Assembly: GCF_033568475.1 (NCBI RefSeq)
Contig: NC_133120.1
Coordinates: forward strand, 84,648,151 to 84,712,150
Source: Henckelia pumila
Taxonomy: Eukaryota; Streptophyta; Magnoliopsida; Lamiales; Gesneriaceae
Length of the DNA stretch: 64,000 bases
Reading direction: 5' to 3'
Within the stretch, counting starts at the first letter, position 1. The number at the start of each line of letters is the position of its first letter. Positions 14,878-63,172 of the stretch are shown here, piece after piece. The position numbers and the translations under genes were made by a program. The notes beneath the pieces are model-generated. The model made no database searches. It saw nothing but the letters and a program-made list of their open reading frames with translations, and was not told the DNA's origin.

Positions 14878-17800
14878 TGTGGGGATCCGGTTGCTAATCT
14901 CATCTTAGGGCAATAAACGATTAATAAACAATTAATCAAACAATAAAAGAATATTCAAACCAAGAGCTAAATTTTTTTTTTTTTAAAACTGAGCACCTCG
15001 CTCGATCGGATAAACTTGCCCGATCGAGCGAGCAAGAATATCCTGCTCTCGGGTCTGAACATATTTGGCCTCGCTCGATCGGTGGAAATCATCCGATCGA
15101 GCGAGCCCAAAAACTCAATTCTCTGCTTTGAAAAATCACAAGCCCCGCTCGATCCGTGGAGTTTATCCGATCGAGCGGGCACTCTGTCCAGAAAATAAAA
15201 ATGCAACTTTGCTGTACAATTTGATTCCAAATCTCATACCAACTTCATATAAACTTCTCAACATCATGCTAAATACTTTACATGCATTCAAACTAATAGC
15301 AAGTGATCTAGAATACATGAACTCTCAAGTATAAATCAATACTTGACAAAAACAACATATACAAATGTTCTTGCTTTCTAACATGTTTACCAAATCATAA
15401 TTACATGTCATCTGCTTAAAACCCGAATCACCACATGTCACGCCCCGGGTCCAATCCCGCGCCTGCGCGAATGCACAATGGGCCCCTATAGCAACTACTT
15501 CGTATTCGTCCTCGCTTTACGAAAATGATTAACCCAAGTTGCTATAGAAGTCCATTGTAGCCCATTTTAAATCCATTTTAAATCCTTGATTTTTTCCATG
15601 TGGGATAGGGGTTTCACAATCAACCCTCCTTCAGAAAGCGACGTCCTCGTCGCGACCTGAACTCCCGAGATCCACCAGCACCGGGAATATAGAGGTGGCT
15701 CCTACGGGTTCAAGAGGTGGCTCTCATCATGTAGCACTTTGCCCCGCAGGTTCAAGAGGTGGCTCCCACGCACGTAGCACTTTGTCCCGCATAGCACTTA
15801 TTTCCCGGGGTCTGCCGGCTGGTGACCTGGCTCTGATACCATTCTGTCACGCCCCGGGTCCAGGCCCGCGCCTGCGCGAATGCACAATGGGCCCCTATAG
15901 CAACTACTTCGTATTCGTCCTCGCTTTACGAAAATGATTAACCCAAGTTGCTATAGAAGTCCATTGTAGCCCATTTTAAATCCATTTTAAATCCTTGATT
16001 TTTTCCATGTGGGATAGGGGTTTCACACCACATGCTATCTCTCTTCTCAAGCTATCCAAGCCAACTCTAGCTTGATCATGCCCCAACCTGATGCAATGCA
16101 CACATACAAACAAAGCAACAGCCGGATAACTCCGGTGAGAATAAATCTCAGTATGAAAGACATGCATATACATCATTAACGCATATGGAATCTATATGCC
16201 ATAAAACTCTAAAATCATAAAACATATAATAACATGTAGATCATAGAATCATCATCTATTCTTAAATTCTTACACATAACGATTCATCTAAAGCAAGAGC
16301 ATATAAAGCATAATACAACATTCATATCTAGAATGGCATATCACAACATGCTAGCATTTATAACTGCATAATCTAAACCATAGAAAATTCTAGGTTAATG
16401 CATAAATGCAATGCATGTGCCAAGGAATAGGCTATCAAATCTGATACCAATAAGCTTAGTTCTTGGGATCCCGGGGAATAAAATCTTTAACTAACCACCG
16501 ACTCTTCCAATCGATGTGGTGTTAAATATCTCAATTCCCCTGACTTTGGTGCAACTATAGTGAGTCATCTAGCTCTGGATATAAATCTATATTCCGTGCC
16601 ATGAGTCATTTGACTCTGGAAGTAAATCTACATTCCATGCCACTCACTACAGTTCTCCAAATGTCATATGCACTCTAGGCCATTCTGCCCTCTGTGCTAT
16701 TCAAGGTAGGGTTCAAGATGAATGCAACACAATCTGGATGCATTAAATCATACATAAGCTAAAGCAACATCTTGAACACATCAAGAATATATTTATATGC
16801 ATGTAAGTAATCAAGGATACCAACAAAAGCAAGTAAATCACATAAGAGCACTGAAACAACTAAGTATGTGATTTCAGGATAACTCGAAAACCACCACGTT
16901 CTTGAGTTGTTCTACCTGGCAGGAATAATGTCGATTCATACCTTTCATCGCGATTCAAATATCTTGAATCTGTTGCCAATGCCGATCATCTCAAAGCTAG
17001 CCAAATCGGTCATCACAATCTGCTTATTTCAATCAGTGCTACTTGAAGATGTTTTTGATTCAATTTCAAACACTTTAAGTCATTCGAACTCGAACTCGCC
17101 GATTCAACTTCAATAATCTTCAATTCAAATATGAAATAGATTATAACATATCTAAACATCAATTTCCAATCTGAATCGATGTTTCTTTAAAGCTTATATA
17201 GTTCAAATCTTGCTAATGCAATCGAAATTCAAACCGACGTCGCAACTATTCGAGTCCGATAAATCTTTCGATTCAAATATCATCATATCTTTATTCTCAA
17301 CAAAATCTTATATTCAATTCATCCACAATAAGCTTAAAGATTAGCTCTAAACATGTAGAATTCATATCAATTCAAAATCTTGAACCGGCGGCGTAACTAT
17401 ACGATTTCGATCTTCCCAAAAGCTTAAACATCAATAATACAATCATATAAACCAATAATCATCACCATTTCATCAGCTTATAAACGTACATAACAAGTTC
17501 CAAATTTCAGATTTTCGAAAAATCTTCACAAAATCCAAATCATGTTCAAACGACGATCTTTTCTCGAGCCGTCTTAGATATGCTATCGTCGTATATGCTA
17601 GAACATATTTATACAATCAAATCTTAATTTTAACAACAACTTAAAATTCAAACATGGTACAACTTCATAAAACTTACGTCAAAACGTAGCACTCGGAGCT
17701 GTGATCGCAATTATATGCTTAATCGAAAATTCTACCGGGCGGATCAAAAGTTATTGGAGATTGAAAGGGACAAAAATGGCTTTGGAATATTGTTTTCAGA

Positions 17801-18363
17801 ACTCTCGGACACTTTATGAGTTGTGGCTGAAAAAATCTGATTCCCACGTGAATTGTTTGGATATATATTAGCTTATTTACAGTTTAGTCCCTGAACTTTG
17901 GCCTAATTGCAATTCAGTCTCCGGACAGGCGATTTAATTCAATTTCAATCCTAAATAATTTAAGAATATTAGAATTCAATTCTAAACTCTAAATATTCTC
18001 AAATTAAATATTTTCGGATTAAAATTAAATCATTTCGGAACTTCTCGCATTTTAGTCCTTGAACTACTCAATATTTGCAAATTGGCCCTTGCTCGAATTT
18101 CATACTCAAATTAAATCCTTGATATTTATCATCTTGGAATTCACATCTTAAATTTCATAAATATGAATTCAAATATTTTTAATCTTTAATTTAAGAATTC
18201 CGGATATTAAAATCTTAAAATCCGAAAATCCTCAAATTAAATATTTCTGACCCGAAATTGAAATCTCTAATTTTTAGAAATTTTTAAATTTATCTTTTCA
18301 CTTTTATTCGGAATTTAAATCTTAAATTCCGTAATTAAGAACTTAATATTTTTGGGCCTTACA
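14878..18363 (-). repeat. 3' LTR of the large element (interrupted by a TRIM)
   Basis: Same sequence as 32378-35273 with scattered substitutions, plus the 592-bp insertion at 15436-16027. It contains three hairpin-forming GATCGAGC repeats near 14997-15180. Confidence 0.9.
15436..16027 (-). mobile_element. TRIM retroelement with 183-bp LTRs
   Basis: Direct repeats 15436-15618 and 15845-16027 (TGTCACGCCCCGG ... GGGGTTTCACA on plus) differ at only a couple of bases. On the minus strand the right copy is the 5' LTR and is followed by a primer-binding site, TGGTATCAGAGCC (about 15827-15844), and the internal region ends in a purine tract, GAAGGAGGGTTGAT (15619-15632 complement). The 226-bp interior has repeats of the type TTCAAGAGGTGGCTC and no ORF. 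Target duplication CCACA lies at 15431-15435 and 16028-16032. The sister LTR at 32938 keeps the empty site (CCACG), which proves a secondary insertion. Confidence 0.93.
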
Positions 18364-21300: not shown

Positions 21301-21806
21301 CTGCCAAACAATTTCAGTACTTCTTCTGGCAACTTCACCAACTTCTTGCTAAGTCCTGAAGTTGATATAAAATCAGGCTGGTTCTATGTTCATCTGAATA
21401 TGCTTCTCTTGAACAACTGATCCAGCTCTTCAAATCAACTCCTTTCTAGACATAGCATATTCTGTATCTTTCTAAGTTGATGATTCATAGCTTTGGAGTT
21501 GTTCAACTAACATACTCCTCAGTACAATCGGTTCAAAACCTTACCTCAACACGGTTCTGTTCTATCTGAGGTTCTGTTCTGTCTGAGATTCTCATTGTAA
21601 CGACCCACTGTATCAAGACAGGTCTTTTCAGCGTGCTTATGTTGCTTATGTCAACTCCTTTCTAGACATAGCATATTCTGTATCTTTCTAAGTTGATGAT
21701 TCATAGCTTTGGAGTTGTTCAACTAACATACTCCTCAGTACAATCGGTTCAAAACCTTACCTCAACACGGTTCTGTTCTATCTGAGGTTCTGTTCTGTCT
21801 GAGATT
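18364..21806 (-). mobile_element. internal region of the large element, 3' part
   Basis: AT-rich sequence rich in TCTG/ATCT words, beginning with the polypurine tract adjacent to the 3' LTR. No ORF above about 72 codons, no RT, protease or integrase motif on either strand. I see only the tandem duplication at its right end. Confidence 0.6.
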
Positions 21807-21866
21807 CTCATTGTAACGACCCACTGTATCAAGACAGGTCTTTTCAGCGTGCTTATGTTGCTTATG
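21435..21866. repeat. 216-bp tandem duplication across an insertion junction
   Basis: Units 21435-21650 and 21651-21866 appear identical base for base. Each contains 161 bp of host element, the CTCAT target site, and the first 55 bp of the Cassandra LTR end. The duplication therefore arose after the Cassandra-type insertion. Confidence 0.92.
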
Positions 21867-22200
21867 TCCTCACTCACACGCACCCTGGAAAACTTCCCAG
21901 GGGGTCACCCATCCTATAATTGCCCCAAGTCAAGCACGCTTAACTTTGGAGTTCTTATGTGATGAGCTTCCGAAAAGAAGATGCACCTTCTTGATATGAG
22001 CAGTACATATGAAATCTTTTAAACCCTCCTCAACTATGTAGTCTCATACCTACACAGTCTCAGAATCCCCTCTCATTCGGGCACGGGATCGGTTCATTCA
22101 TGTCTCCCTCCGCCTAGAAGCCTTTCAGGAGCCGCTCATTGTCCGTGCAACCTCTTGGCACCGGCGATCACTCCCCGCCTCTTCAGCCCCGGGCGTCACA
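21812..22200 (-). repeat. Cassandra LTR (3' copy) with 5S rRNA-derived sequence
   Basis: Reads TGTGACGCCCGGGGC ... GGGTCGTTACA on the minus strand. Between about 21888 and 21966 it carries a diverged 3' half of 5S rRNA, including the internal promoter words AGTTAAGCGTGCTTG (A box) and GGATGGGTGACC (C box). 5S-bearing LTRs are the hallmark of Cassandra TRIMs. It is about 9 bp longer than the partner LTR because GCTTATGTT is locally repeated. Confidence 0.88.
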
Positions 22201-22270
22201 TGCCCACCAGCTTCCGCTTGGTTCGTCCCCGAACCATACCGTACTAAGAGAGGTCGGCTTTGATACCAAC
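22201..22270 (-). mobile_element. Cassandra internal region with primer-binding site
   Basis: A 70-bp segment beginning GTTGGTATCAAAGC on the minus strand (complementary to the initiator tRNA-Met 3' end) and ending in the purine-rich AAGCTGGTGGGCA before the LTR. This length and layout are those of a Cassandra-type interior. Confidence 0.8.
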
Positions 22271-24982
22271 TGAAACGACCCTAACTCTCTAATAAATAAA
22301 TATGCGGAAATTTTTTTTTTTTTTTTTATACTACTAAACAAATATATGTACATATATGCCCATACATATATGCACAGAATAAAATAATTAAAATAAATAC
22401 ACGACTAAATAAATAAATAATTAAATACTTAAGAAAAATGCATTCTTTTAAATAACCATCTGAGTCAAAACAATAATTAAAAATATACTGCATAAATAAA
22501 ATAATTAAAATGTGTGCATGCACTAAAAATATTTAATAAAATATTCCAATAAACCTCAACCACTAAAAATATTAAAATGTATCATGACAACATGCACGGT
22601 GACTCAGAAGCTGTCACGGTCACGGGGCTACTGCAGCGCTGCTCATACATCCTCACCACCGGTAGGAGTAACCTGCTCCTCTACGTACTCACCTGCACCA
22701 TAACAGTGTAGTGAGCCTAGAGGCCCAACATGCATACTAACAAGGGTTTAAAAATAATTTAAATCAATTTAATACTAATACATACATATACATGAATGAG
22801 CATGCTTAAAAAATTACATAACATAACTTACATAAATAAACATACATAACATACATAATATCATACATACTAGAGTTGTTGAGCATTTATTTTCTTAACA
22901 TCGAATGGTCCTATCCGTAAGTGTGACCCATAGTGCGACTGATCAGTCTAAGAAACCATCGTACGAGGCTGGTGGCGAACCACCCATACATAAATGGCAG
23001 AAAACTGCCCATACATAAATGGCAGAAACTGTCTATACATAAATGGCCACACTACTTCAATTTCCACCTGAAATATTTTATTTGCTCAACCATAGAAATT
23101 CAATCATAGCATAAAAATTGATTTCATGAATGCATGTACTTAAATAAATTGTGTGTCCTTCATTTATATTTAATTTATTTTTTTTAATATCATATAAATA
23201 TTCAAATAACTTTTCATGCATAAAAATAATTAAATATAAACTCGGGACACACGCAAATTTCTCATGGTTTGATACAGCTGCTGGCCCTAGACATGCAAGC
23301 CCATTAACTTAAGACTTGGCCCATAAATCAACCAAAGCCCATTAAGACTAAATTAGGCCCAATAACACTGTCCCTGGCCCAATGGGCCCAAAAGCCCAAT
23401 AATAGGCCCAATAACTTTCATGGGCTCCCAAGCCCATAAAAATTTCTGGCCAACTTAAAAACTTAAATAAAAATTATTAAAAGCCCAAAAATAACTAAAA
23501 TAACCCAAAAAAAATTTAATGGAACCCAAATAAATTAAATGGTACTAATTAAATTTTTTGGGAATTTAATTAGTCCATTTAATTCCTAATTAACTTAAAG
23601 ACTTAAAAATAAAAATACCCGAGCCCAATTAAAATAACCCGGATCCGGACCCACTTAACTTAACCCATCTTATTTTAGACCCGACCCGGACCACCTGACC
23701 CGACCCGGACCACCTGACCCGACCCGGATCCAAGTCAAACCCTAGAACCCGAAACCCTACCTTACCTTTCCCTCCTTGTCTCGGCCGCACGAGCAGCAGG
23801 CCTTCACGGCCTGCTGCAGCCCAGCTCCGGCCACCGTGGCCGGAGCCCCGCCGGCAGGACCTCCCCAGGGTCCTGCCGGTTCGAACCATACCCTGGCCCG
23901 AACCCCATGCTGTCCCCTTAGCCTACACCGAAACCTCTTCCACGAACCCTAGCCTGCGCAGCAGAAAACGGGCAGTCATGGTTCATCTCGAACCAGACCG
24001 GTCCTAGCCCGTTCCAACCCGTGTCTGACCCTGCCACTCGACCCTAGGGACCCCAAAGAACCTTTCTAACCATGGACCAGCAGCCCACCTAGCCATGGAC
24101 ATGAAAAACGTGAGCATGCAATCACAAACCAAAACCGAGTGCTTGAGAGAACAAATTTTGAAAGAAACATGCTGTCAAAAAGATGAGTCTCGGTACTACA
24201 CACCCACACACATACATACACTGATATAGGATTAAAAAGTGAATAGAAACATGCCTTAATACCGATTTATAGAGCTAAAAGCGTGTACGACGGGCTTCGG
24301 GACGACGGGACGACGACGGGATGCCTTGGCTTGCTTGGAACCTTCGAAAACCGACCTCCTATGGAGTTTTAGGGCTGAAGACCGATTGGAGAAGATGATG
24401 AACAGTGGGGTGACGGCTGGGAGCTTGGAGTGATCGGCTAGAATAGGGTTTTAGGTAGAATAGGTTTTATTTTTGGTGTTAATTAAAATATAGGTTAAAT
24501 AATTAAATATAAAAAGGTTTTAAATAATTAATATACAACTTAAACCCCTAATTAAACTAAAAAAAATAAGATAACATAAAATAAATCTCGAAATATTAAT
24601 TTAGGGGAATTTTAAAAATACTAAAAAGTCAGTATTTTGACTAATTTTGGATAAAAATGACCCCTAAAATTAAATAAAATTAAATACTTAAAATTTTGAG
24701 ATAATAAAACTCAAAATAATATTTTAAGGCTCTAAAAAGGCTCATAAAATAATTTGGGTGGAAAGTCGTCATCTCGTCCGTCCACGGTCCCGTCTACGCG
24801 ATCAAATAATAAAAATACTAAAAATCATAAAAATTACTAATTATGGGTTAAATGCTTAAAAATGAATTAAATCATGCATAAATAATTCACATAATTATTT
24901 AACCCATAAATCATAAAATTTAAATAATTAATTATCCTAATTATGCAGGCGGATTTACGTATTTAAAATACCGGGTGTTACA
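22271..24982 (-). repeat. chromovirus LTR (2.7 kb)
   Basis: Begins TGTAACACCCGG and ends GTCGTTTCA on the minus strand. It shares long blocks with 29745-32318 and 60297-63172, for example the GCGTAGACGGGACCGTGGAC word. A CCGACCCGGACCACCTGA tandem repeat sits near 23686-23730. ORFs inside it (for example 23629-23889) are GC-island artefacts. Confidence 0.9.
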
Positions 24983-25003
24983 ATTCTCCCCCCCTTAAAT
25001 TGA
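24983..25003 (-). other. polypurine tract of the chromovirus
   Basis: AAGGGGGGGAGAAT directly precedes the LTR on the minus strand, the expected plus-strand priming site. Confidence 0.85.
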
Positions 25004-25027
25004 ATTTCGTCCTCAAAATTAAAGTAC

Positions 25028-26326
25028 TTACCCGAACAACTCCGGGTAGCGAGTCCTCATGTCGGCCTCGGTCTCCCAAGTAGCTTCCTCCTCTGAGTGA
25101 TTCAGCCACTGGACTCTGACCATCGGTATGACCCGCGTCCTAAGCCTCCGCTCCTCCCTAGCCAAGATCCGCACTGGCCTCTCCTCATACACTAGATCCG
25201 GTGGCAACTGTAAGGGCTCGAAATCCAACACATGCGACGGGTTGGAGACATATCTCCGAAGCATGGATACATGGAAAACGTTGTGCACTGCCGCTAGCCC
25301 CGGTGGTAGAGCTAAACGGTAGGCCAACGTGCCAACTCTCTCCAAGATCTCGAATGGCCCTATATACCTCGGATTAAGCTTGCCTCTCCGGCCAAAACGC
25401 ACTACTCCCTTCATCGGTGACACCTTCAGGAATATGTGATCACCTACAGCGAACTCCAAATCTCGTCGTCTGGCATCTGCATAACTCTTCTGCCGACTCT
25501 GGGCAGTCCTCATCCGGTCTCGGATCTGAGTCACTATGTCAGCTGTCTGCTGCACAATCTCAGGACCCAGCAAAATGCGCTCACCAACCTCATCCCAATG
25601 CACAGGAGATCTGCATCTCCTCCCATACAATGCTGCATAAGGAGCCATACCTATAGACGACTGAAAACTGTTGTTATAGGTAAACTCCACTAATGGCAGT
25701 CTAGTCTCCCAAGAGCCCCGAAAATCAATGACACAAGCTCTCAGAAGATCCTCGAGAACCTGGATCACCCTCTCAGACTGACCATCTGTCTGGGGATGAA
25801 ATGCTGTACTGAACAAAAGCCTCGTCCCCAAAGCTGTGTGCAGACTCTTCCAAAATGCAGATGTGAATCTCGGATCTCTGTCTGACACAATAGACACTGG
25901 TATGCCATGCAGTCTAACAATCTCTCTGATGTAAAGCTCTGCATACTGTGTCAAAGTATAAGTAATCCTCACCGGCAAGAAATGAGCTGACTTGGTGAGT
26001 CTATCCACAATCACCCAAATCGCTGTGCAACCTCTGACACTCCTCGGTAAGCCAACCACAAAGTCCATCGTAATATTCTCCCATTTCCATTCCGGAATGG
26101 GAAGAGGTCTAAGAAGTCCTGCCGGACGCTGATGCTCTGCCTTGACTTGCTGACAAATCAAGCACTCTGACACCACTCTCCCGATGTCACTCTTCATCCC
26201 GGGCCACCAATACAATAGCTGCAAATCTTTGTACATCTTCGTACTTCCGGGGTGAATGGAGTACGGAGATGTGTGAGCCTCTGCTAAAATATCAGCTCTC
26301 AACTGATCGACGTTCGGTACCCACAT
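25028..26326 (-). pseudogene. pol: chromovirus integrase with C-terminal chromodomain
   Basis: A 432-codon ORF. It has an HHCC zinc-binding region (AEAH, SIHPG, CLICQQVK), the DDE core (MDFVVGLP, VSDRDPRF, SERVIQVLEDL), the GPF/Y-type module (RYIGPFEILERVG), and a C-terminal chromodomain-like block (VRVQWLNHSEEEATWE). The last points to the chromodomain-bearing Tekay/Del-type lineage. It overlaps the upstream pol ORF by 35 bp in another frame; the linker normally lying between RNase H and the integrase zinc finger is largely missing, so the polyprotein is broken here. The domains themselves look intact. Confidence 0.88.
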
Positions 26327-28436
26327 CCTCCCTAATCCGATCTCGCAGAACTGGCTGCACCGTCAACACTGACAAGCTCGGTGCATGGCCACTCGGATAA
26401 CACTCCAAGCCAAAACTCTGAATCTCGCTCTGTAGTGGTAACTGTACGGTCAAACATGATAGCACTGACGACTTTCGACTCAAAGCATCGGCCACTACAT
26501 TAGCTTTACCCGGATGGTAGCTAATGTCACAATCATAGTCCTTCACCAACTCCAACCATCTGCGTTGTCTCATGTTCAACTCCTTCTGTGTGAAGAAGTA
26601 CTTGAGACTCTTGTGGTCTATGAAAATCTTGCACTTCTCGCCATACAGATAGTGCCTCCAGATTTTCAAAGCGAAAACCACTGCCGCTAACTCCAAGTCA
26701 TGTGTCGGGTAGTTCTGCTCATGAATCTTCAACTGCCTCGACGCATATGCGATAACTCTGCCACTCTGCATAAGTACTGCGCCCAAACCAAGCTTGGACG
26801 CGTCGGTGTACACCACTAACTCCTCATGTGGCACTGTCATAGCTAACACAGGTGCTGAAGTAAGTGCATCCTTCAGCTGATCAAAGCTCCTCTGACAATC
26901 TGGACTCCAACTATACTTCGCGTTCTTCTTGGTTAAGGAAGTCAAGGGTACTGCAATAGAGGAAAAACCCTTGATGAACTTCCTATAGTATCCTGCCAAA
27001 CCCAAGAAGCTACGAATCTCCGAAGCATTCTTTGGAATCCCCCAATCCTTCACTGCCTGCACCTTGGACTGATCCACTGCAATCCCATCCCTAGAAATAA
27101 TGTGGCCTAGAAACGCCACTTGCTCCAACCAAAACTCACACTTACTGAACTTTGCAAACAGTCGATGCTCTCTCAAAGTCTGCAAGGCTGTATGCAAATG
27201 CTGTGTATGCTCCTCAATGCTCCTCGAGTAGATCAATATGTCATCAATGAATACAATGACAAACTGATCTAGATACGGCTGGAAAACACGATGCATGAGA
27301 TCCATAAAAACTGCTGGAGCATTGGTCAACCCAAAGGGCATCACTAAGAACTCGTAATGCCCATATCGTGTCCTAAAGGCAGTCTTAGACACGTCTGAAT
27401 CCCTGACTCTCAGCTGATGGTAACCAGATCGCATATCGATCTTGGAGAATACCGAAGCTCCCTGCAACTGATCGAATAAATCTTCTATCCTCGGCAGTGG
27501 GTACTTATTCTTCACTGTGACCCTATTGAGCTCTCGATAATCGATGCACACTCTCATACTGCCATCCTTCTTCTTCACAAATAATACTGGAGCTCCCCAT
27601 GGAGAAAAGCTAGGACGAACAAAGCCTTTCTCTAATAATTCCTGTATCTGCTCCTTCAACTCTTTCATCTCGGTAGGAGCAAGTCTGTATGGTGCCTTGG
27701 AGATAGGCACGGTGTCTGGCACTAAGTCGATGCTGAACTCCACATCTCTCACTGGTGGAATTCCTGCAACATCCTCCGGAAAGACATCCGGAAAGTCACG
27801 CACCACCTCTATCTCTGATAATGATCTGCTAGATGGCTCTGAAGTCGTGACGATACTCGCTAGAAACCCCTGGCAACCCCGTCTCAACAACTTCCTCGCC
27901 TGAATATGAGATATCACCTGAAGCATATCACTGCTCTGAGATGCATGAAAAGTGAACGGGTCGCCTACTGTAGGTCTCACTGACACTGATCTCCGACGAA
28001 AATCAATCGAAGCTCCATTGACTGTCAACCAGTCCATGCCCAAAATCAAATCGAATCCACTCAATGGCAAAACTACTACATCTGCTCGAATGGAGTGTCC
28101 CTGCAGCTCTAACTCCAGTCCTCGAATAACCTTCGAGGTAGAAATAATCTGCCCTGACGGCATAGTAACATCATACCCACTGTCACTACTCTCAGGTGTG
28201 ATGCCTACCCGCCTGATAAACTCCAGGGAGATAAACGAATGCGTAGCCCCTGAATCTAGCAACGCAAACGTGAAGTTTTCTCCTACTAGAATTCTCCCGA
28301 TGATTAAGGAGGTATCTGGGTCTGCCTCCTCAGCCTGCATGACAAACACCCGCCCAGTGGTGTTCTTCTTCCTTGAGCAGTTGTATGCCCCATTCCCTAG
28401 CTCCTTGCAGTGGTAGCAAACGTTGGAACCGATCAA
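26292..28436 (-). pseudogene. pol: chromovirus gag C-terminus, protease, reverse transcriptase, RNase H
   Basis: A 714-codon ORF. A zinc knuckle at 7-20 has Asn in place of the His ligand ([14 protein letters not shown]), so it is damaged. Aspartic protease DSGA is at 61-64. RT spans about 250-440, with FVIVFIDDI carrying the catalytic pair at 398-399. RNase H follows ([28 protein letters not shown]) and a Ty3-type [14 protein letters not shown] end. The ORF then runs into an unrelated tail, TERRSVES, at the frameshift/deletion. Unlike gag, the RT and RNase H frames are uninterrupted, suggesting recent activity. Confidence 0.93.
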
Positions 28437-28901
28437 ACACTGACCTGAGTGAGGCCTCTAACACTATGGGCACAAGGGAACTACTCCTGTCTTAGGGGCC
28501 CCGCCCCTCTGCTGCTGCTGCGGCTGGCGCCCCTAAGGCCTCTGCTGTTGTCCCTGCTGATTCGGGCCCTTAGACGGCCCAGTAAACTGCTTCTTCGCAG
28601 AAGGCTGCGAAGATGGTCGATAAGCTCCTGGCTGGAACTGCCTCTTGCTTTGCTGTTACCTCTGCATCTCTCGTCTCCCTTCCTTAGAACGCAATGCTCT
28701 GCTAACTGCCGCCTCGTAAGTAGTGACATCCAACATGCGATCGTCATGCTTGATGTCAGCCCGCAATCCACAAACTGTCTCAACTTGTCTGGTGCACTCA
28801 GCAAAAGAGGCACGAAGTGACACCCTCTCTCGAACTGGGTAATGTAATCCACCACATATTTCTTTACGTAAATCGCCATGCATAACTAAGTATTTTAACA
28901 T
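28437..28901 (-). pseudogene. gag: decayed, 5'-truncated gag of the chromovirus
   Basis: Recognisable gag peptides occur in different frames: ITQFERGCHFVPLL in one, then LRADIKHDDRMLDVTTYE and AAVSRALRSKEGRREMQR in another, followed by a stop and a Gln-rich region. The N-terminal half of gag is absent: the leader runs almost directly into the middle of the domain. This copy could not make a full Gag. Confidence 0.8.
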
Positions 28902-29014
28902 TAATGCTAACTTAAATTCTTAAAAGTGAATCATGCTATAAACACTAAAAACTTACAGACCGGTAGCGTGGATTTCTGAGCTCGCATAGCAGTAATGACC
29001 CCTCCAAGGACCGT

Positions 29015-29028
29015 GCTTTGATACCAAC
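29015..29028 (-). other. primer-binding site (tRNA-iMet)
   Basis: GTTGGTATCAAAGC on the minus strand directly follows the Cassandra LTR end GTTACA. The next bases lead into chromovirus leader and gag, not Cassandra interior. Confidence 0.85.
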
Positions 29029-29408
29029 TGTAACGACCCACTGTATCAAGACAGGTCTTTTCAGCGTGCTTATGTCCTCACTCACACGCACCCTGGAAAA
29101 CTTCCCAGGGGGTCACCCATCCTATAATTGCCCCAAGTCAAGCACGCTTAACTTTGGAGTTCTTATGTGATGAGCTTCCGAAAAGAAGATGCACCTTCTT
29201 GATATGAGCAGTACATATGAAATCTTTTAAACCCTCCTCAACTATGTAGTCCCATACCTACACAGTCTTAGAATCCCCTCTCATTCGGGCACGGGATCGG
29301 CTCATTCATGTCTCCCTCCGCCTAGAAGCCTTTCAGGAGCCGCTCATTGTCCGTGCAACCTCTTGGCACCGGCGATCACTCCCCGCCTCTTCAGCCCCGG
29401 GCGTCACA
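29029..29408 (-). repeat. Cassandra LTR (5' copy) with 5S rRNA-derived sequence
   Basis: 380 bp, nearly identical to 21812-22200. The 5S-derived segment lies at about 29086-29165 on the minus strand with recognisable A- and C-box words. Followed on the right by CTCAT, the target duplication. Confidence 0.88.
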
Positions 29409-29744
29409 CTCATGCTATCTGCATAAGCTGTCTTATTCGATAACAGAAGCAATCGATATGGCAGAGATTATAACATACAATTTAAGTATAACATACATAT
29501 AATCTCATGCTTCTGAATAGAACACATGCTTGCAAATTCTCATGCTTTTCACATAATACATGCTTGCAACGAATTCATTTATTCTAATGAATTCAAGAAA
29601 TCATACATACATATCAGCATATAAGCATGTAATTCGCATATCGATAAAGCAAGCAGTGTTCAATCAAACAATCATCGTCGCATACAATTCTGTAAAGCAA
29701 GTAAAGCATAATCATGCAATACTATAAATGCATGCGACTTAATC
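29409..29744 (-). mobile_element. internal region of the large element, middle fragment
   Basis: Non-coding AT-rich remnant lying between two nested insertions, starting with CTCAT and ending with TAATC, the two target sites. No ORF of note. Confidence 0.6.
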
Positions 29745-32318
29745 TGTAACACCCAGTATTTTTTTTATACGTAAATTCGCATGCTTAATTAGGAAATTTA
29801 TTTATTAAAAATTTTAGATTATGGGTTAAATATTTATGTGAAATTATTTGTGCATGTTTTAAGTTATTTTCAAGCATTTAATCCATAATTAGTGATTTTC
29901 ACGATTTATGGAAATTTAATTATTTTATCGCGTAGACGGGACCGTGGACGGACGAGATACTAAAATATTTAACCAAAAATATTTTATGAGTTTATGAGCC
30001 TTAAAATAATATTTTAAGGTATTTTGTCAAGAATATTTTAGTATTTAATTATATATTTATTTAAGGGTTGATTTTTAGCCAAAATAAGTCATTTTAGTGA
30101 CTTTTATTAAATTTTAAAAATTCCCTATTATATTATTTCGGGATTTATACTTTGATATCAGATTGTTATTATTATTTTTTTAAGAGTTTTAAAGATTAAG
30201 TTAAGGTATAAATTATTTATATTGAGTAATATCTATTATTAACACATTATCTACCAAAAATTTAAACCTAAATCACTCCCTAAACTTATTCTAAACCCCA
30301 TCAGCCGCCTCCTATAATCTTCATCAGCCTTTCTTCACGTTCTTTTCCAGAAATTCAACCCCTAGCCGATCAACCTCAAATTCTTTTAAAGATTTTGTCC
30401 GTTCGTCGTCCCGAAGCCTCGTATTCGCGTCTTCCTTCGTCAAATAAATTCAAGGCATGTGTAATTCTTTTCCTTGAACACCATATAAGCTATTAAATCA
30501 CTTTTTATCAGAATTACCACGATTTTTACGTTAGAAAAATCTTGAAAGTTGAAGCATGCATGTTTAGTCATGTTCTTGTTCATGTTTTGCTTGTTTGCTT
30601 GGATATAGCCACGTTTTTCAGCCATGGAAGGGACCAGACTGCTGCTGGTCATGTAAGGGTGTGAGTGAGGGTCCTAGGAGTCGGTTGGCTCAGGTGGTTC
30701 GAACTAGGAAGGGCCAGGAACGAAGCAATCACAGCTGGTGCATCATGAGGTGCGCAGACTAGGGTTTCTGGAAGAGGACTTAGGTCTGGGGCTAGGAGCC
30801 ATGGCTCGGGCTGAGCCATGGTGGGTTAGGACCGCCCAGATGTGGGCGGTGGCGCTCCGGCCAGGGGCGGCCGGAGCTGGCCGGCAGCAGGCCAAGAAGG
30901 CCTGCTGCTCGCGGCCGAAGGGAGTTGGGGCTAGGGGGGATCGGGTTTTGGGCTGGGGGTGGGTTCAGGGTCGGGTCTTGGAGTCCGGGTTGGGTCAGGT
31001 AGGTCTAGGGTCGGGTCAGGTGGTTCGGGTCCGGGTTAGATGGGCCGGGCTTGGGTATTTTAATTTCTAAGTATTTAATAGTTTAAGTGTATTTTAGGAT
31101 TTATTAATTAGTTAAAAAATTATTTGGGCCTCCAAATAATTTTATTTGGGCTTTTTAAAATTATTTTTAAGTTAGCCAATAATTTTTATGGGCTCGTGGG
31201 CCCATAGGAATTTTTGGGCCAGTCAGTGTATTTTTGGGTCAGTCTAGAATTTTATTGGGTTTAATTAAGTTAATGGGCTTAAATATTTTTATTTAGGCCC
31301 AATTAAGTTTAATTAAGTTATTTGGGCTAAGATATGATTATTGGGCTTTTATTTAAGTTTAATGGGCTTAGAATGAGTGACCAGCAGTCTGGACCAACCC
31401 ATGAAAAATAAATAAGTCCGGAATATATATTTAATTATTTTTATGCATAAAGTCTATTTTAAGTATAAGTATATTATACTATGAAAAATTAATTAAATAT
31501 ATATTACGAACATATTTTCAGTGCATGCATTCATGAAATAATTTTATGGCATGATTTAATGTTTAAGGTTGAGCTAGAAAATAATTTTTATATTGGAAGT
31601 TGAAGTAGTGTGACAATTTAAGGGGGATCAGTCCCCACATGTTAAGGGCAGTTTACTGTCAATTTAAGGGTAGTTTACTACCATTAAGAGGTGATTCGTC
31701 ACCGCCGCGTACGTTGGTTTTAAGAGACTGATCAGTCGAACTTTTAAGTTTAAGGTTACACTACGGATATGACCATGCGATGTTAGAAAATGTTATGCTC
31801 AACAATGTTATGTATGTATTATATGATTATATTTAAGATCAAGTTTAAGCAAGATTTTCAGTCATGATTCATGATTTTTAAGCATGCTCATTCATGTATA
31901 TGATATGTATTAATGTAATTCTGTGATGCATTATTTTTAATCTTGTTATAAAGGATTAGACATGTTGAGCCTCTAGGCTCACTACATTTATATGGTGCAG
32001 GTGAGTACGTAGAGGAAGATGTAGTTCCTACCGGTGGTGAGAACGTATGAGCGGACGCGCAGTGATCCCCCGTGACCGTCGGCTGAGTTTTCATGGATAT
32101 TTTAAGAATTTTAAAACTCTGTTTCTTTTATGTTTTGTCAGTGGTGAATTTTAGTATTATTTTTATTAAGTAATTTTATTGCATGCAAACTTTTAGGTAG
32201 ATTGTCTGACAGTATTTTAATTAAGTTTGACTCAGTTATTTTAGTAAAAATGTTGCGTTTTATTTATATTATTTTTAAATCTGTTTATTTTGTGCATATA
32301 TTAGTAGTAGATGTTTCA
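29745..32318 (+). mobile_element. solo chromovirus LTR with intact target duplication
   Basis: Begins TGTAACACCC and ends AGATGTTTCA, the same family as 22271-24982 but in the opposite orientation and without any internal region. TAATC occurs immediately before (29740-29744) and after (32319-32323). This is the classic product of LTR-LTR recombination. ORFs such as 30738-31070 lie in its GC-rich part and are not genes. Confidence 0.94.
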
Positions 32319-32360
32319 TAATCTACCCCGCTCAACTTCTATCTTAGTCTAAGACTTTAC

Positions 32361-32377
32361 GCTCTGATACCACCTGT
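32361..32377 (-). other. primer-binding site of the large element
   Basis: ACAGGTGGTATCAGAGC on the minus strand adjoins the 5' LTR end CCCCACA; it matches the usual initiator tRNA-Met site. Confidence 0.85.
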
Positions 32378-35273
32378 TGTGGGGACCCGGGTTGCTAATC
32401 TCATCTTAGGACAATAAACGATTAATAAACAATTAATCAAACAATAAAATAATATTCAAACCAAGAGCTAAAATTTTATTTTTTTTAAAAAAAAAACTGA
32501 GCACCTCGCTCGATCGGGTAAACTTGCCCGATCGAGCGAGCAAGAATATCCTGCTCTCGGGTCTGAACATATTTGGCCTCGCTCAATAGGTGGAAATCAT
32601 CCGATCGAGCGAGCCCAAAAACTCACTTCTCTGCTTTGGAAAATCACAGGCCGCGCTCGATCCGTGGAGTTTACCCGATCGAGCGGGCACTCTGTCCAGA
32701 AAATAAAAATGCAACTTTGTTGTACAATTTGATTCCAAATCTCATACCAACTTCATATAAACTTCTCAACATCATGCTAAATACTTTACATGCATTCAAA
32801 CTAATAGCAAGTGATCTAGAATACATGAACTCTCAAGTATAAATCAATACTTACAAAAACAACATATACAAATGTTCTTGCTTTCTAACATGTTTACCAA
32901 ATCATAATTATATGTCATCTGCTTAAAACCCGAATCACCACGTGCTATCTCTCTTCTCAAGCTATCCAAGCCAACTCTAGCTTGATCATGCCCCAACCTG
33001 ATGCAATGCACACATACAAACAAAGCAACAACCGAATAACTCCGGTGAGAATAAATCTCAGTATGAAAGACATGCATATACATCATTAACGCATATGGAA
33101 TCTATATGTCATAAAACTCTAAAATCATAAAACATGTAATAACATGTAGATCATAGAATCATCATCTATTCTTAAATTCTTACACATAACGATTCATCTA
33201 AAGCAAGAGCATATAAAGCATAATACAACATTCATATCTAGAATGGCATATCACAACATGCTAGCATTTATAACTGCATAATCTAAACCATAGAAAATTC
33301 TAGGTTAATACATAAATGCAATGCATGTGCCAAGGAATAGGCTATCAAATCTGATACCAATAAGTTTAGTTCTTGGGATCCCGGGGAATAAAATCTTTAA
33401 CTAACCACCGACTCTCCCAATCGAGGTGGTGTTAAATATCTCAATTCCCCTAACTTTGGTGCAACTATAGTGAGTCATCTAGCTCTGGATATAAATCTAT
33501 ATTCCGTGTCATGAGTCATTTGACTCTGGAAGTAAATCTACATTCCATGCCACTCACTACAGTTCTCCAAACGTCATATGCACTCTAGGCCATTCTGCCC
33601 TCTGTGCTATTCAAGGTAGGGTTCAAGATGAATGCAACACAATCTGGATGCATTAAATCATACATAAGCTAAAGCAACATCTTGAACACATCAAGAATAT
33701 ATTTATATGCATGTAAGTAATCAAAGATACCAACAAAAGCAAGTAAAACACATAAGAGCACTGAAACAACTAAGTATGTGATTTCAGGATAACTCGAAAA
33801 CCACCACGTTCTCGAGTTGTTCTACCTGGCAGGAATAATGTCGATTCATACCTTTCATCGCGATTCAAATATCTTGAATCTGTTGCCAATGCCGATCATC
33901 TCAAAGCTAGCCAAATCGGTCATCACAATCTGCTTATTTCAATGAGTGCTACTTGAAGGTGTTTTTGATTCAATTTCAAACACTTCAAGTCATTCGAACT
34001 TGAACTCGTCGATTCAACTTTAATAATCTTCAATTCAAATCTGAAATAGATTATAACATATCTAAACATCAATTTTCAATCTGAATCGATGTTTCTTTAA
34101 AGCTTATATAGTTCAAATCTTGCTAATACAATCGAAATTCAAACCGACGTCGCAACTATTCGAGTCCGATAAATCTTTCGATTCAAATATCATCATATCT
34201 TTATTCTCAACAAAATCTTATATTCAATTCATTCACAATAAGTTTAAAGATTAGCTCTAAACATGTAGAATTCATATCAATTCAAAATCTTGAACCGACG
34301 GGGTAATGATACGATTTCGATCTTTCCAAAAGCTTAAACATCAATAATACAATCATATAAACCAATAATCATCACCATTTCATCAGCTTATAAACGTACA
34401 TAACAAGTCCCAAATTTCAGATTTTCGAAAAATCTTCACAAAATCCAAATCATGTTCAAACGACGATCTTTTCTCGAGTCGTCTTAGATATGCTATCGTC
34501 GTATATGCTAGAACATGTTTATACAATCAAATCTTAATTCTAACAACAACTTAAAATTCAAACATGGTAGAACTTCATAAAACTTACGTCAAAACGTAGC
34601 ACTCGAAGCTGTGATCGCAATTATATGCTTAATCAGAAATTCTACCGGGCGGATCAAAAGTTATTGGAGATTGAAAGGGACAAAAATGACTTTGGAATAT
34701 TGTTTTCAGAACTCTCGGACACTTTCTGAGTTGTGGCTGAAACAATCTGATTCCCACGTGAATTGCTTGGATATATATTAGCTTATTTGCAGTTTAGTCC
34801 CTGAACTTTGGCCTAATTGCAATTTAGTCCCCGGACAAGCGATTTAATTCAATTTCAATTCTAAATAATTTAAGAATATTAGAATTCAATTCTAAACTCT
34901 AAATATTCTCAAATTAAATATTCTTGAATTAAAATTAAATCATTTCGGAACTTCTCGCATTTTAGTCCTTGAACTACTCAATATTTGCAAATTGGCCCTT
35001 GCTCGGATTTCATACTCAAATTAAATCCTTGATATTTATCATCTTGGAATTCACGTCTTAAATTCCATAAATATCAATTCAAATATTTTTAATCTTTTAA
35101 TTTAAGAATTCCGGATATTAAAATCTTAAAATCCGAAAATTCTCAAATTAAATATTTCTGACCCGAAATTGAAATCTCTAATTTTCATAAATTCTTAAAT
35201 TCATCTTTTCACTTTTATTCAAAATTTAAATCTTAAATCCCGTAATTAAGAACTTAATATTTTGGGCCTTACA
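32378..35273 (-). repeat. 5' LTR of the large element
   Basis: Uninterrupted 2.9-kb LTR paired with 14878-18363. It lacks the TRIM, giving the ancestral empty site near 32938. The middle of its three hairpin repeats (about 32578-32612) has decayed. Confidence 0.9.
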
Positions 35274-60135: not shown

Positions 60136-63100
60136 TGAAACATCTACTACTAATAATTGCGGAAATTTTTTTTTTATTTAAAATACTAATTAAAATAGAT
60201 GTACATACATGTCCATACATATATGCACAAAAATAAACAGATTTAAAAATAGCTCAAATAAAATGCAACATTTAATAAATTAAATGTCTGAGTCATTGTA
60301 ACACCCGGAAATTTTTAATACGTAAATTTGCATGCATAATTAAAAAAAATAATTATTTAAAATTTATATTTGGGTTAAATGACATTTATGTGTTATTATG
60401 TGGATTATATGCATGATTTAAATTTATGAGATCATTTAACCCGCAGTTATTGTATTTTTAGATTTTTGAGAATATTTTTGAGTCGATCGCGTAGACGGGA
60501 CCGTGGACGGACGATATGCCAAAATATTTAGCCAAAAATATTTTATGAGTTTTAGGAGCCTTAAAATAATATTTTAAGATATTTTGTCAAGAAAATTTTA
60601 GTATTTAGTTATATATTTATTTAATAATTGATTTTTAGCCAAAATAAGTCATTTTATTGACTTTTATTAATATTTAAAAATTCCCAAAATTATTATTTCG
60701 GGATTTTGGTTTAATATCAGATTTATTATTAATTTTAATAGTTTAAAAATTTTATATTTTATGTCATATTATCTACCTAACTATATTATATTAATTAATA
60801 TCCTATTTTAATTCTATTTAATTTATTTAAAACCTAAACCTACCCTACCACTATCTCCTTCAGCCGACAACTCCCTTTTCTTCCACCCTCCTTCACGCCT
60901 CCATCATCCTTCTTGGCAGAAAACCCCATAGCCGATCATTCAAGCTTCATTCCTTGAAGAATTTTGGTCCGTTCGTCGTCCCGGAAACCCGTAGACGCTA
61001 TATTCTTCGTCAATAATTTAAAGGCATGTGTAATTCTTTCCTTGAACACCATATAAGCTACTATTCTTTTCATGTCAGATTTTTATTGGATATTTATGAT
61101 TAAGCTTTAGCATGTTCATGTTTTTGCACTTGGAGTTTGATTTTCTCACGTTTTGCATGTTGTACATAATAGGCTCACGTTTTTTTTTGGTCATGGAAGG
61201 GTCCAGGCTGTTGCTCAACCTATGGGGTCGTGTCTTAGGGTCCCTTGAGTCGAGTGGTTTGAGTGGGGTGAGCCATGGGTGGCCCAAACTGAAGCAAGAA
61301 CAGCTGGTGTACAGACAGCGCGCAGGTTTAGGGTCCCGGGGAAGGGAGGATCGTTCTCCTTCCTCAGGCCATGGATTTTTGCGTGGTTTGTTGAGTTAGA
61401 ACCGTATGGATGTTGGCTAGGTCTAGGAACTGGTTTCATGGTCATTGGTGGTCTGAGTAGGCAACACGAGGGAAAACGCTGCAACTGCTCGCGTCTGCGC
61501 GTGAGCTGCACATGGTCGAGATGGCAGAGCTTCGTTCTCCCTCTATGGACGATGGTTTGGTCTGGTTCTTGGCTTGATGGAAGCGTCTGGATGTGGGCTA
61601 AGTTTAGGTGGTGGTGATCCGGCCGGTGGTGGCCGGAGAATGGCGGTCGTCGGTTCTGAATGGGAGCTGCTCGCGGCCAAGAAGGGAAGAGGGAGGGGGA
61701 AACGGGTTTTGGGGTTTTGGCTGGGTTTGGGCCGGGTCTTTGGGTCCGGGTCAGGTGGTCCGGGTCCAGGTTAGGTGGGCCGGGCTCGGATATTTTAATT
61801 TTTAATTAATTAAGAGTTTAATTGGTTTTTGAGCTTTAAAAATTAGTTAGAAAATTATTTGGGCCTCCAAATAATTTTATTTGGACCTTAAATAATTTAT
61901 TTAAGATAGCCTAATAATTTTTATGGGCTTGGGAGCCCATGAGAATTATTGGGCCAGTCAGTGATTTTATTGGGCCAGTCTAAGAATTTTTATAAATAAA
62001 TTAGTTAATGGGCCTAAATATTTTTATTTAAGCCCAATAATATTTAAGTATTTTATTTTAGTAAAAAAAATATAATTTTAAAATTTATTTATTTAATTAT
62101 GGGCTAAAAATTAGTTAATGGGCTTTAAGTTAGTTAAGGGGATTAGTAGAGAGGCCAGCAGTCTGGACCAACCCATGAAAAATAAATAAGTTCGGAATAT
62201 ATATTTAATTATTTTTATGCATGAAGTCTATTTTAAGTATAAATATATTATATTATAAAAAATTAATTAAATATATATTACGAACATATTTTCAGTGCAT
62301 GCATTCATGAAATTTCTTATGTATATAATTATGTAAATGATGAGCAATAAAATATATTTTGGTGAAAATTGAAGTATATGTGACATAGGGGTGGTTTTCC
62401 ACCATATGATTCGGTAGTTTTACTACCATAGGGGTGGTTATCCACCATATGATTCGGTAGTTTACTACCATAGGAGGTGATTTATCACCGCCATCGTACG
62501 TTGGTTTATGAGACTGATCAGTCGACACATGAGCGTCACACTTATGGATAGGACCATCTTCAGGTTTCAAAAGCATTGCTCAATTATGTTATATATGATA
62601 AAGAAATAATATGTTTATGATTATGGTTATGATTCAGTTTATGATTCAGCAGTTTTATTATGTGATGAAAATATTTTCATGCATGCTCATGTACATGTAT
62701 ATGTATTAGTAATTATGTGATGCATTATTTTTAACCTTGTTATAAAGGATTAGACATGTTGAGCCCCTAGGCTCACTACGCTTATATGGTGCAGGTGAGA
62801 CAGATGACTTTTATGTAGCTCCTATCGGTGGTGAGGACGTATGAATTCACGGAGCAGTGGACCTCGTGACCGTCGCAGATTTTAGTTGATGTTAAAGAAA
62901 CATTTATTTTATTATGCTGAGTTTTTAAACAAGTTCATCTTTTTATTATTTTAATTATGGGAATTTTGAATTATCAAACTTAGTATTTTTAATTCTTGCA
63001 TAAGGATATTTTCAGCAATTAATTAAGTTATTTTTATGTAGTAAAATTATTTCTTTTATGTTTATACATATATGTATGGGCGTATATGTATAGTATTATT

Positions 63101-63172
63101 TATAGATTATTTCAAAAAAATAATAATAATAATAATTTCCGCATTTAAGTTTAAAGAGTTCTAGATGTTTCA
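60136..63172 (+). mobile_element. chromovirus LTR with an inverted copy of its own end
   Basis: 60297-63172 is a full LTR (TGTAACACCC ... AGATGTTTCA) of the family at 22271 and 29745. Immediately before it, 60136-60296 is an inverted fragment of an LTR 3' end (TGAAACATCTACTACTAATA onward), most like the end of 29745-32318. ACTGG precedes the inverted piece (60131-60135) and follows the LTR (63173-63177), so both parts appear to have entered as one unit. ORFs at 61112-61805 lie in the GC-rich LTR segment and are not genes. Confidence 0.8.

Follow-up and report, generated by a model that had tools for sequence, protein, structure and literature searches.

The stretch of DNA analysed here (hereafter the window) comprises 64,000 nucleotides of the Henckelia pumila genome (NCBI RefSeq assembly GCF_033568475.1, contig NC_133120.1, positions 84,648,151 to 84,712,150 of the forward strand). 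Within it we found two long terminal repeat (LTR) retrotransposons of different families, a Cassandra element and a chromovirus, joined on the minus strand into one composite. Inspection at base level in the assembly verified the five-part order put forward in the initial annotation: a Cassandra LTR, the chromovirus interior, a chromovirus LTR, the Cassandra interior and a second Cassandra LTR, bounded on both sides by the target-site duplication (TSD) CTCAT. Both joins lie at the primer-binding site (PBS; Table 1). The two Cassandra LTRs differ by 3 substitutions (3 of 380 positions) and one 9-bp insertion or deletion.

An internal third LTR, two interiors, a TSD and like outer LTRs are the marks by which Sabot and Schulman (2007, PMC1950507) describe complex insertions, and the composite has all of them; its second interior is that of a terminal-repeat retrotransposon in miniature (TRIM), and its first lacks part of gag. 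A simply nested inner element would carry two LTRs and a TSD of its own, whereas only one chromovirus LTR is present. A second chromovirus LTR adjoining position 29015, where the initial annotation had advised looking for one, was sought and not found; the chromovirus LTR that lies approximately 330 bp away, at 29745-32319, is a solo LTR on the plus strand, independent of the composite and flanked by a TAATC duplication of its own.

Table 1. Parts of the Cassandra-chromovirus composite, in minus-strand order (window positions).
Feature	Position	Strand	Remarks
TSD CTCAT, outer right	29409..29413		letters read 29413-29409 on the minus strand
Cassandra LTR, 5' copy, 380 bp, TGTGACGCCC...GGGTCGTTACA	29029..29408	-	5S boxes A and C at 29153-29111
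Join 1, spacer GT and PBS TGGTATCAAAGC, Cassandra LTR to chromovirus interior	29015..29028	-	chromovirus-type spacer
Chromovirus interior, polypurine tract at its end	24983..29014	-	
Chromovirus 5' leader, 159 bp	28856..29014	-	gag similarity not found (tblastn); match to copies L120, L125 and L127
gag remnant	28457..28855	-	no N-terminal part; frame changes near 28767; stops in frame (tblastn)
Protease, reverse transcriptase and RNase H, open frame of 721 aa	26292..28457	-	Pfam RVP_2, RVT_1, RT_RNaseH
Integrase: zinc-binding domain, SH3-like domain, weak chromodomain	25028..26326	-	frame changes and 23-35 residues are lost at the RNase H border
Polypurine tract AAGGGGGGGAGAAT preceding the chromovirus LTR	24983..25000	-	
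Sole chromovirus LTR of the composite, 2712 bp, TGTAACACCC...GGGTCGTTTCA	22271..24982	-	
Join 2, spacer GT and PBS TGGTATCAAAGC, chromovirus LTR to Cassandra interior	22257..22270	-	
Cassandra interior including polypurine tract	22201..22256	-	98.6% identical to copy L126 over 70 bp with the PBS
Cassandra LTR, 3' copy, 389 bp, 9 bp longer than the 5' copy	21812..22200	-	5S_rRNA match 21875-21988
TSD CTCAT, outer left	21807..21811		

The outer element was assigned to Cassandra by the criteria given by Kalendar et al. (2020, PMC7215508). Both of its LTRs contain box A (RGTTAAGYRHGY) and box C (RRRATRGGTRACY), 18 nt apart. The PBS TGGTATCAAAGC differs at one position from the criterion sequence TGGTATCAGAGC and lies 84 nt from box C (5-200 nt being allowed); TGGTATCAGAGC itself occurs exactly in a diverged group of Cassandra copies (L131-L134). 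The left LTR aligned to positions 1-120 of the Rfam 5S_rRNA model with 26.2 bits (E 0.0024, 411 bases searched). This does not reach the gathering score of 38, at which a search of the whole window gave no 5S_rRNA match. Regular Cassandra copies elsewhere in the genome (L145, L152, L164 and L166) consist of two LTRs and a non-coding interior of approximately 68 bp; in the window this interior is separated from its 5' LTR by the chromovirus. At C1:24.72 Mb (L154-L158; contigs are numbered C1, C2 and so on) Cassandra LTRs and interiors form a tandem array, as in other plants. At C1:27.15 Mb (L160) a Cassandra LTR end and PBS are followed by a different interior, perhaps a join to another family.

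The chromovirus probably belongs to the Del/Tekay lineage, judging by its LTR start, LTR length and domain order. The LTR start agrees at 10 of 10 positions with the Del U3 att site reported by Cruz et al. (2014, PMC4029996); at the LTR end, the distance of GGG from the terminus is one base greater than in the published type-A U5 site, as set against the description of that site rather than its logo. The Pfam Chromo match at the C-terminus of the integrase was weak (23.1 bits, E 7.1e-5, cut-off 25.1). Similarity to gag, mapped by tblastn with 240 retrieved proteins (47 matching at E 1e-3), begins only at 28855, and approximately 436 bp of the gag region are missing compared with the regular copy L120; the frame change and loss at the RNase H-integrase border lie near 26330. 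Over its first 166 bp the interior matches copies L120, L125 and L127 at 91-94% identity, and we accordingly assigned the 159 bp following the PBS to the chromovirus leader. The stretch 28850-28945 weakly resembles an inverted chromovirus LTR start, a likeness that we set aside because these bases are part of the regular leader. A protein search started from the gag remnant yielded nothing (57 candidates), and a search of viral contigs found no relatives; the matches of a 16-base pattern in bacterial and archaeal contigs (at least 119 stretches) were taken for chance. Copies L121-L123 represent a sister chromovirus family.

The genome-wide search proposed in the initial annotation revealed that such joins are recurrent. 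The succession Cassandra LTR-PBS-chromovirus leader (join 1) was found exactly at 11 places, and the succession chromovirus LTR-PBS-Cassandra interior (join 2) exactly at 13, with reversed-pattern controls giving 0 in each case. Repeat counts from this pattern search are lower bounds, and the join counts cover Cassandra-chromovirus pairs only. With up to three mismatches join 1 gave 232 places, 100 of which were listed, the 0-, 1- and 2-mismatch classes being complete; judged by their letters, many of the weaker matches were ordinary Cassandra or chromovirus copies. For join 2 all 41 places were listed. Of the seeming hybrids on the first pattern list, those at C1:29.75 and C1:79.97 Mb were discarded, being a mutated Cassandra and a chromovirus with TTACA.

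All 11 exact join-1 places were read past the pattern, at three of them (C3:58.97 Mb, C4:33.38 Mb and C66) by just five extra bases on the chromovirus side, and for all 13 exact join-2 places the reading took in the Cassandra side, with alignment of both interior and LTR. At 8 of the 11 newly read join-2 loci a chromovirus LTR start lay 2.5-3 kb upstream; none was found in the pieces read at the other three (C2:83.63, C3:144.58 and C4:226.82 Mb). The pieces at the predicted 3' ends of C66, C3:33.86 Mb and C2:49.26 Mb held no LTR end. Together the exact joins mark 19 loci on five contigs (C1, C2, C3, C4 and C66), or 18 events when C3:68.99 and C3:69.08 Mb, which share a flank, are counted once. 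Adding C1:120.2 Mb and three one-mismatch loci (C43:0.26, C3:118.3 and C2:190.0 Mb) brings the number of distinct hybrids to 22; at the one-mismatch loci the Cassandra LTR aligned in all three and the chromovirus leader in two, with C43 judged by eye. Six loci (L204-L209 on C2, C3 and C43) have a Cassandra LTR fused through the PBS to the leader of a sister chromovirus. In five of them this leader is 82-84% identical to the known leaders over 42-47 bp, and in the sixth (L207) it looks alike by eye, so that more than one chromovirus subfamily is involved.

Both outer ends could be read as LTR ends at nine hybrid loci, eight of which carry a perfect 5-bp TSD, and these cover four arrangements. 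Cassandra lies outside in the window (CTCAT) and at C1:2.70 Mb (GATGC). The chromovirus lies outside at C3:58.97 Mb (ACCTC), C4:33.38 Mb (ACATC) and C1:120.2 Mb (GTTCA). The remaining two arrangements are half hybrids with unlike LTRs at their two ends: a Cassandra LTR, chromovirus interior and chromovirus LTR at C4:75.2 Mb (AAAAT), and a chromovirus LTR, Cassandra interior and Cassandra LTR at C3:87.84 Mb (CACTT). A further half hybrid at C3:161.69 Mb (CAACT) has an inverted Cassandra at its left end, with the U5 end outward. The ninth locus, C2:87.3 Mb, has Cassandra outside, a short chromovirus interior and a deleted Cassandra interior, between flanks ACAAA and ACAAG. In the window, at 60136-63172, a chromovirus LTR follows an inverted copy of its own 3' end, both outer ends being U5 with ACTGG on each side; this U5-U5 form is the same as that of the hybrid at C3:161.69 Mb.

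Repetitive elements can mislead an assembly, and at the left edge of the composite there is an exact 216-bp tandem duplication (21435-21868). It includes the Cassandra LTR end and the TSD and is therefore younger than the insertion, or an assembly effect. That the composite as a whole is an assembly artefact is hardly credible, given exact joins on five contigs and matching outer TSDs at eight hybrid loci.

We then compared the joins with the native sequences of both families. Young Cassandra copies read GTGGGTCGTTACA-AA-TGGTATCARAGC-CGACC (R = G or A), the diverged group L131-L134 mostly reads CTGGGGCGTTACA-GT-TGGTATCAGAGC-CGACC, and regular chromovirus copies read GGGTCGTTTCA-GT-TGGTATCARAGC-ACGGTCC, with TTTTA in L120. 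With AA native to the Cassandra subfamily of the window and GT to the chromovirus, the 14 bases at both window joins are thus the chromovirus version. The initial annotation had correctly placed both joins at the PBS; its statement that the two elements share the 14-bp GTTGGTATCAAAGC did not hold for native copies, since this Cassandra subfamily has AA. What they have in common is the 12-nt PBS and similar LTR ends (GGGTCGTTACA and GGGTCGTTTCA), and the surroundings of the PBS were the sole shared stretch noticed between the two elements. Over the genome, join-1 spacers were AA at 6, GT at 4 and AT at 1 of 11 places; those of join 2 were GT at 11, GA at 1 and AA at 1 of 13, two of the GT places being one duplicated locus.

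These spacers bear on whether a chromovirus was inserted by integrase at the LTR/PBS border of a resident Cassandra and afterwards lost its 5' LTR between short repeats. Taken alone, the window could be read in this way, as GTTGG follows both LTR ends and resembles a 5-bp TSD; GT does occur in the diverged group L131-L134, and the AA at one join-2 place (C3:144.58 Mb) would fit insertion into a native young Cassandra. However, the window's subfamily natively has AATGG rather than GTTGG, and no Cassandra-Cassandra join with GT occurred among 8 places with 0-1 mismatches, a complete class. Nesting would also require the identical insertion point and deletion at many loci, and would not produce half hybrids. 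We therefore regard it as very improbable, in agreement with the initial annotation, which had rejected a simple nested insertion: the inner chromovirus LTR is followed by GT and not by the AA native to this Cassandra subfamily. The A-type PBS at both joins had been considered a sufficient argument against nesting; this was dropped, as young Cassandra copies have both PBS types.

In normal replication, plus-strand strong-stop DNA, which comprises LTR, spacer and PBS, is transferred to the 3' end of the minus strand, where it meets the complement of the PBS. The composite is, in our view, quite likely a hybrid cDNA that was fused by plus-strand transfer between two elements and inserted by integrase. 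Cassandra and the chromovirus would have been co-packaged and reverse-transcribed together, and the plus-strand strong-stop DNA of one would have paired with the PBS complement on the minus strand of the other, a mispairing made possible by the 12-nt PBS TGGTATCARAGC that both share. A single transfer would yield a half hybrid whose two terminal LTRs are unlike. If two transfers took place and strand displacement failed to open the inner LTR, a five-part composite with either element outside would result, and a chromovirus-type integrase would insert the product to leave a 5-bp TSD. The spacer at a join would derive mostly from the preceding LTR and sometimes from the other strand, and the mixed spacers would then arise because mispaired strands were resolved either way. 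All product types expected from this model were found in the genome.

The initial annotation had also offered recombination of a one-LTR circle at the PBS. In this integrase-independent route, single-strand annealing or gap repair at the PBS would have brought chromovirus cDNA or a one-LTR circle into a resident Cassandra, and the reverse would apply where the chromovirus lies outside. Such a route is known for the Tf1 element of fission yeast, for which a review describes PBS-homology insertion and tandem products (PMC12786077). It yields exactly the window layout, the outer TSD being that of the older element, and copying from the inner element would account for GT at both joins in the window and at C1:2.70 Mb. 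In contrast, it does not produce half hybrids with unlike LTRs within one TSD (AAAAT, CACTT), and it was these that spoke for plus-strand transfer, the first of the two readings in the initial annotation. A single crossover should also leave the same break point at both joins, whereas in the window the break of join 1 falls within the two final bases of the LTR and that of join 2 inside the PBS or at the PBS end. Nor does a resident older element suit C1:2.70 Mb, where both parts are recent (identical Cassandra LTRs and a chromovirus nearly identical to a young copy). We consider this route unlikely. Half hybrids likewise fit integrase-inserted fused cDNA better than later chromosomal recombination. 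Host end-joining factors are reported in the same review to use PBS microhomology in the plus-strand transfer step (PMC12786077).

A comparison of the two intact Cassandra-outside composites addressed whether the hybrids have independent origins. At C1:2.70 Mb the Cassandra LTRs are identical (0 of 380 positions differ), and the chromovirus part shares 99.86% identity, over 6580 aligned bases, with a regular copy at C1:2.36-2.37 Mb that has its own TSD, CCATT. Between the window and C1:2.70 Mb, identity is 97.4% for the Cassandra LTRs (10 differences in 380 positions) and only 72-85% for the chromovirus LTRs. As the chromovirus LTRs are so unlike while the chromovirus part at 2.70 Mb is nearly identical to another regular copy, the two composites are best seen as separate events. 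A single ancestral composite that later transposed as a unit could explain their common order, GT spacers and A-type PBS as well as the similarity of their Cassandra LTRs. It is nevertheless distinctly improbable in the face of these chromovirus comparisons, of the AA at join 1 in chromovirus-outside hybrids and of the six further loci that join Cassandra to the sister leader.

Several observations weigh against a fused cDNA formed by plus-strand transfer. GT stands at 4 of 11 join-1 places, the window included, where Cassandra strong-stop DNA should bring AA; such places would need resolution toward the minus strand. That the two intact Cassandra-outside composites agree in having GT and the A-type PBS at each join is perhaps a sign of common ancestry. 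Half hybrids might conceivably have formed afterwards, when composites recombined across the 11 bp in which the LTR ends resemble each other. Furthermore, no TSD was verified at 11 of the 19 loci with exact joins: two of these, representing one duplicated event, were read without a TSD (C3:68.99/69.08 Mb, where a chromovirus LTR start stands beside an inverted Cassandra fragment), and at nine an outer end was unread or disordered. Thus at C2:24.44 Mb the LTR start is next to an inverted chromovirus leader, and C4:138.5 Mb continues into a second Cassandra interior.

The composite lies among other elements. Direct repeats at 14878-15437 plus 16026-18363 and at 32378-35273 (minus strand) are 95.6-97.2% identical, and the canonical PBS TGGTATCAGAGC is found at 32372 beside the right copy; they look like the LTRs of a large element enclosing the composite. 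The left of these LTRs is split by a different TRIM at 15436-16027 (minus strand), which has 183-bp LTRs of 98.9% identity, the PBS TGGTATCAGAGC, flanks that suggest a TGTGG duplication and a Del-att-like LTR end.

We finally considered which element supplies enzymes to Cassandra. According to Cruz et al., the Del U3 att site is TGTAACACCC, with positions 1, 2, 3, 6, 9 and 10 most conserved, and the type-A U5 site, with GGG at -8 to -10, was common to all eudicots in that study; they suggest that att sites could show the lineage serving enzyme-less elements (PMC4029996). The Cassandra LTR start TGTGACGCCC matches the Del U3 site at 8 of 10 positions and keeps all six conserved ones. The Cassandra LTR end GGGTCGTTACA matches that of the chromovirus, GGGTCGTTTCA, at 10 of 11 positions, GGG in both lying one base further from the terminus than in the published site. 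The window has 8145 10-mers that begin with TG; 12 of them score at least 8 of 10 and keep the conserved positions. LTR-element ends account for 10 of the 12, some of them read on the other strand.

The fused cDNAs and the likeness of LTR ends make the chromovirus lineage the best candidate donor, and the LTR ends lend the donor role suggested in the initial annotation some independent support. We infer that a Del/Tekay chromovirus likely serves as Cassandra's enzyme donor: RNA from the 5S-type promoter would enter chromovirus particles and be reverse-transcribed together with chromovirus RNA, and the integrase would accept the similar ends. The 22 hybrids would then be by-products of this arrangement, and the half hybrids single integrase reactions on unlike ends. 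To be set against this, the window's chromovirus copy is defective and could not itself have supplied enzymes. The Del-like start is also not specific to Cassandra, the second TRIM (15436-16027) being among the 12, and Del-like ends may be common among TRIMs.

Related structures have been described. The complex insertions of Sabot and Schulman (2007, PMC1950507), attributed to strand switching between two packaged templates with a heterodimer formed via the R region, likewise have three LTRs, two interiors, one 5-bp TSD and like outer LTRs. Those cases unite similar members of one family through a switch in R, whereas here unrelated families are joined at the PBS, half hybrids occur and both outer orders are found. 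Cassandra tandem arrays are also chains of LTRs and interiors, with template switching given as one possible origin; the arrays treated by Kalendar et al. are of Cassandra only (PMC7215508), as opposed to the two families here. Tandem LTR retrotransposons of rice and other plants (PMC11899658) show the order LTR-interior-LTR-interior-LTR, some with one TSD, and as described there consist of highly similar units, in contrast to the two families joined here. Integrase-independent retrotransposition of Tf1 resembles our case in PBS-homology-guided insertion and tandem elements, as summarized in the review (PMC12786077); halves with unlike LTRs in one TSD, present here, would not be expected from that route.

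Cassandra is widespread in vascular plants, and as late as 2020 its autonomous partners were described as unknown (PMC7215508). Gao et al. (2016, PMC4717578) similarly hunted for enzyme donors of TRIMs; their account relies on LTR and internal similarity and gives 11 of 289 subfamilies, four with full coding capacity, as against fused cDNA and LTR-end likeness here. In the open-access literature searched we found complex or tandem insertions within families and Cassandra arrays, and no Cassandra-chromovirus hybrid or named Cassandra partner. Fused insertions within a family are thus known, and the version between families, which reveals a partner, seems new.

Intermolecular plus-strand transfer is rare, and the hybrids are a natural record of it, with break points readable to the base. 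A search for elements with unlike LTRs in one TSD could assign partners to other enzyme-less elements.

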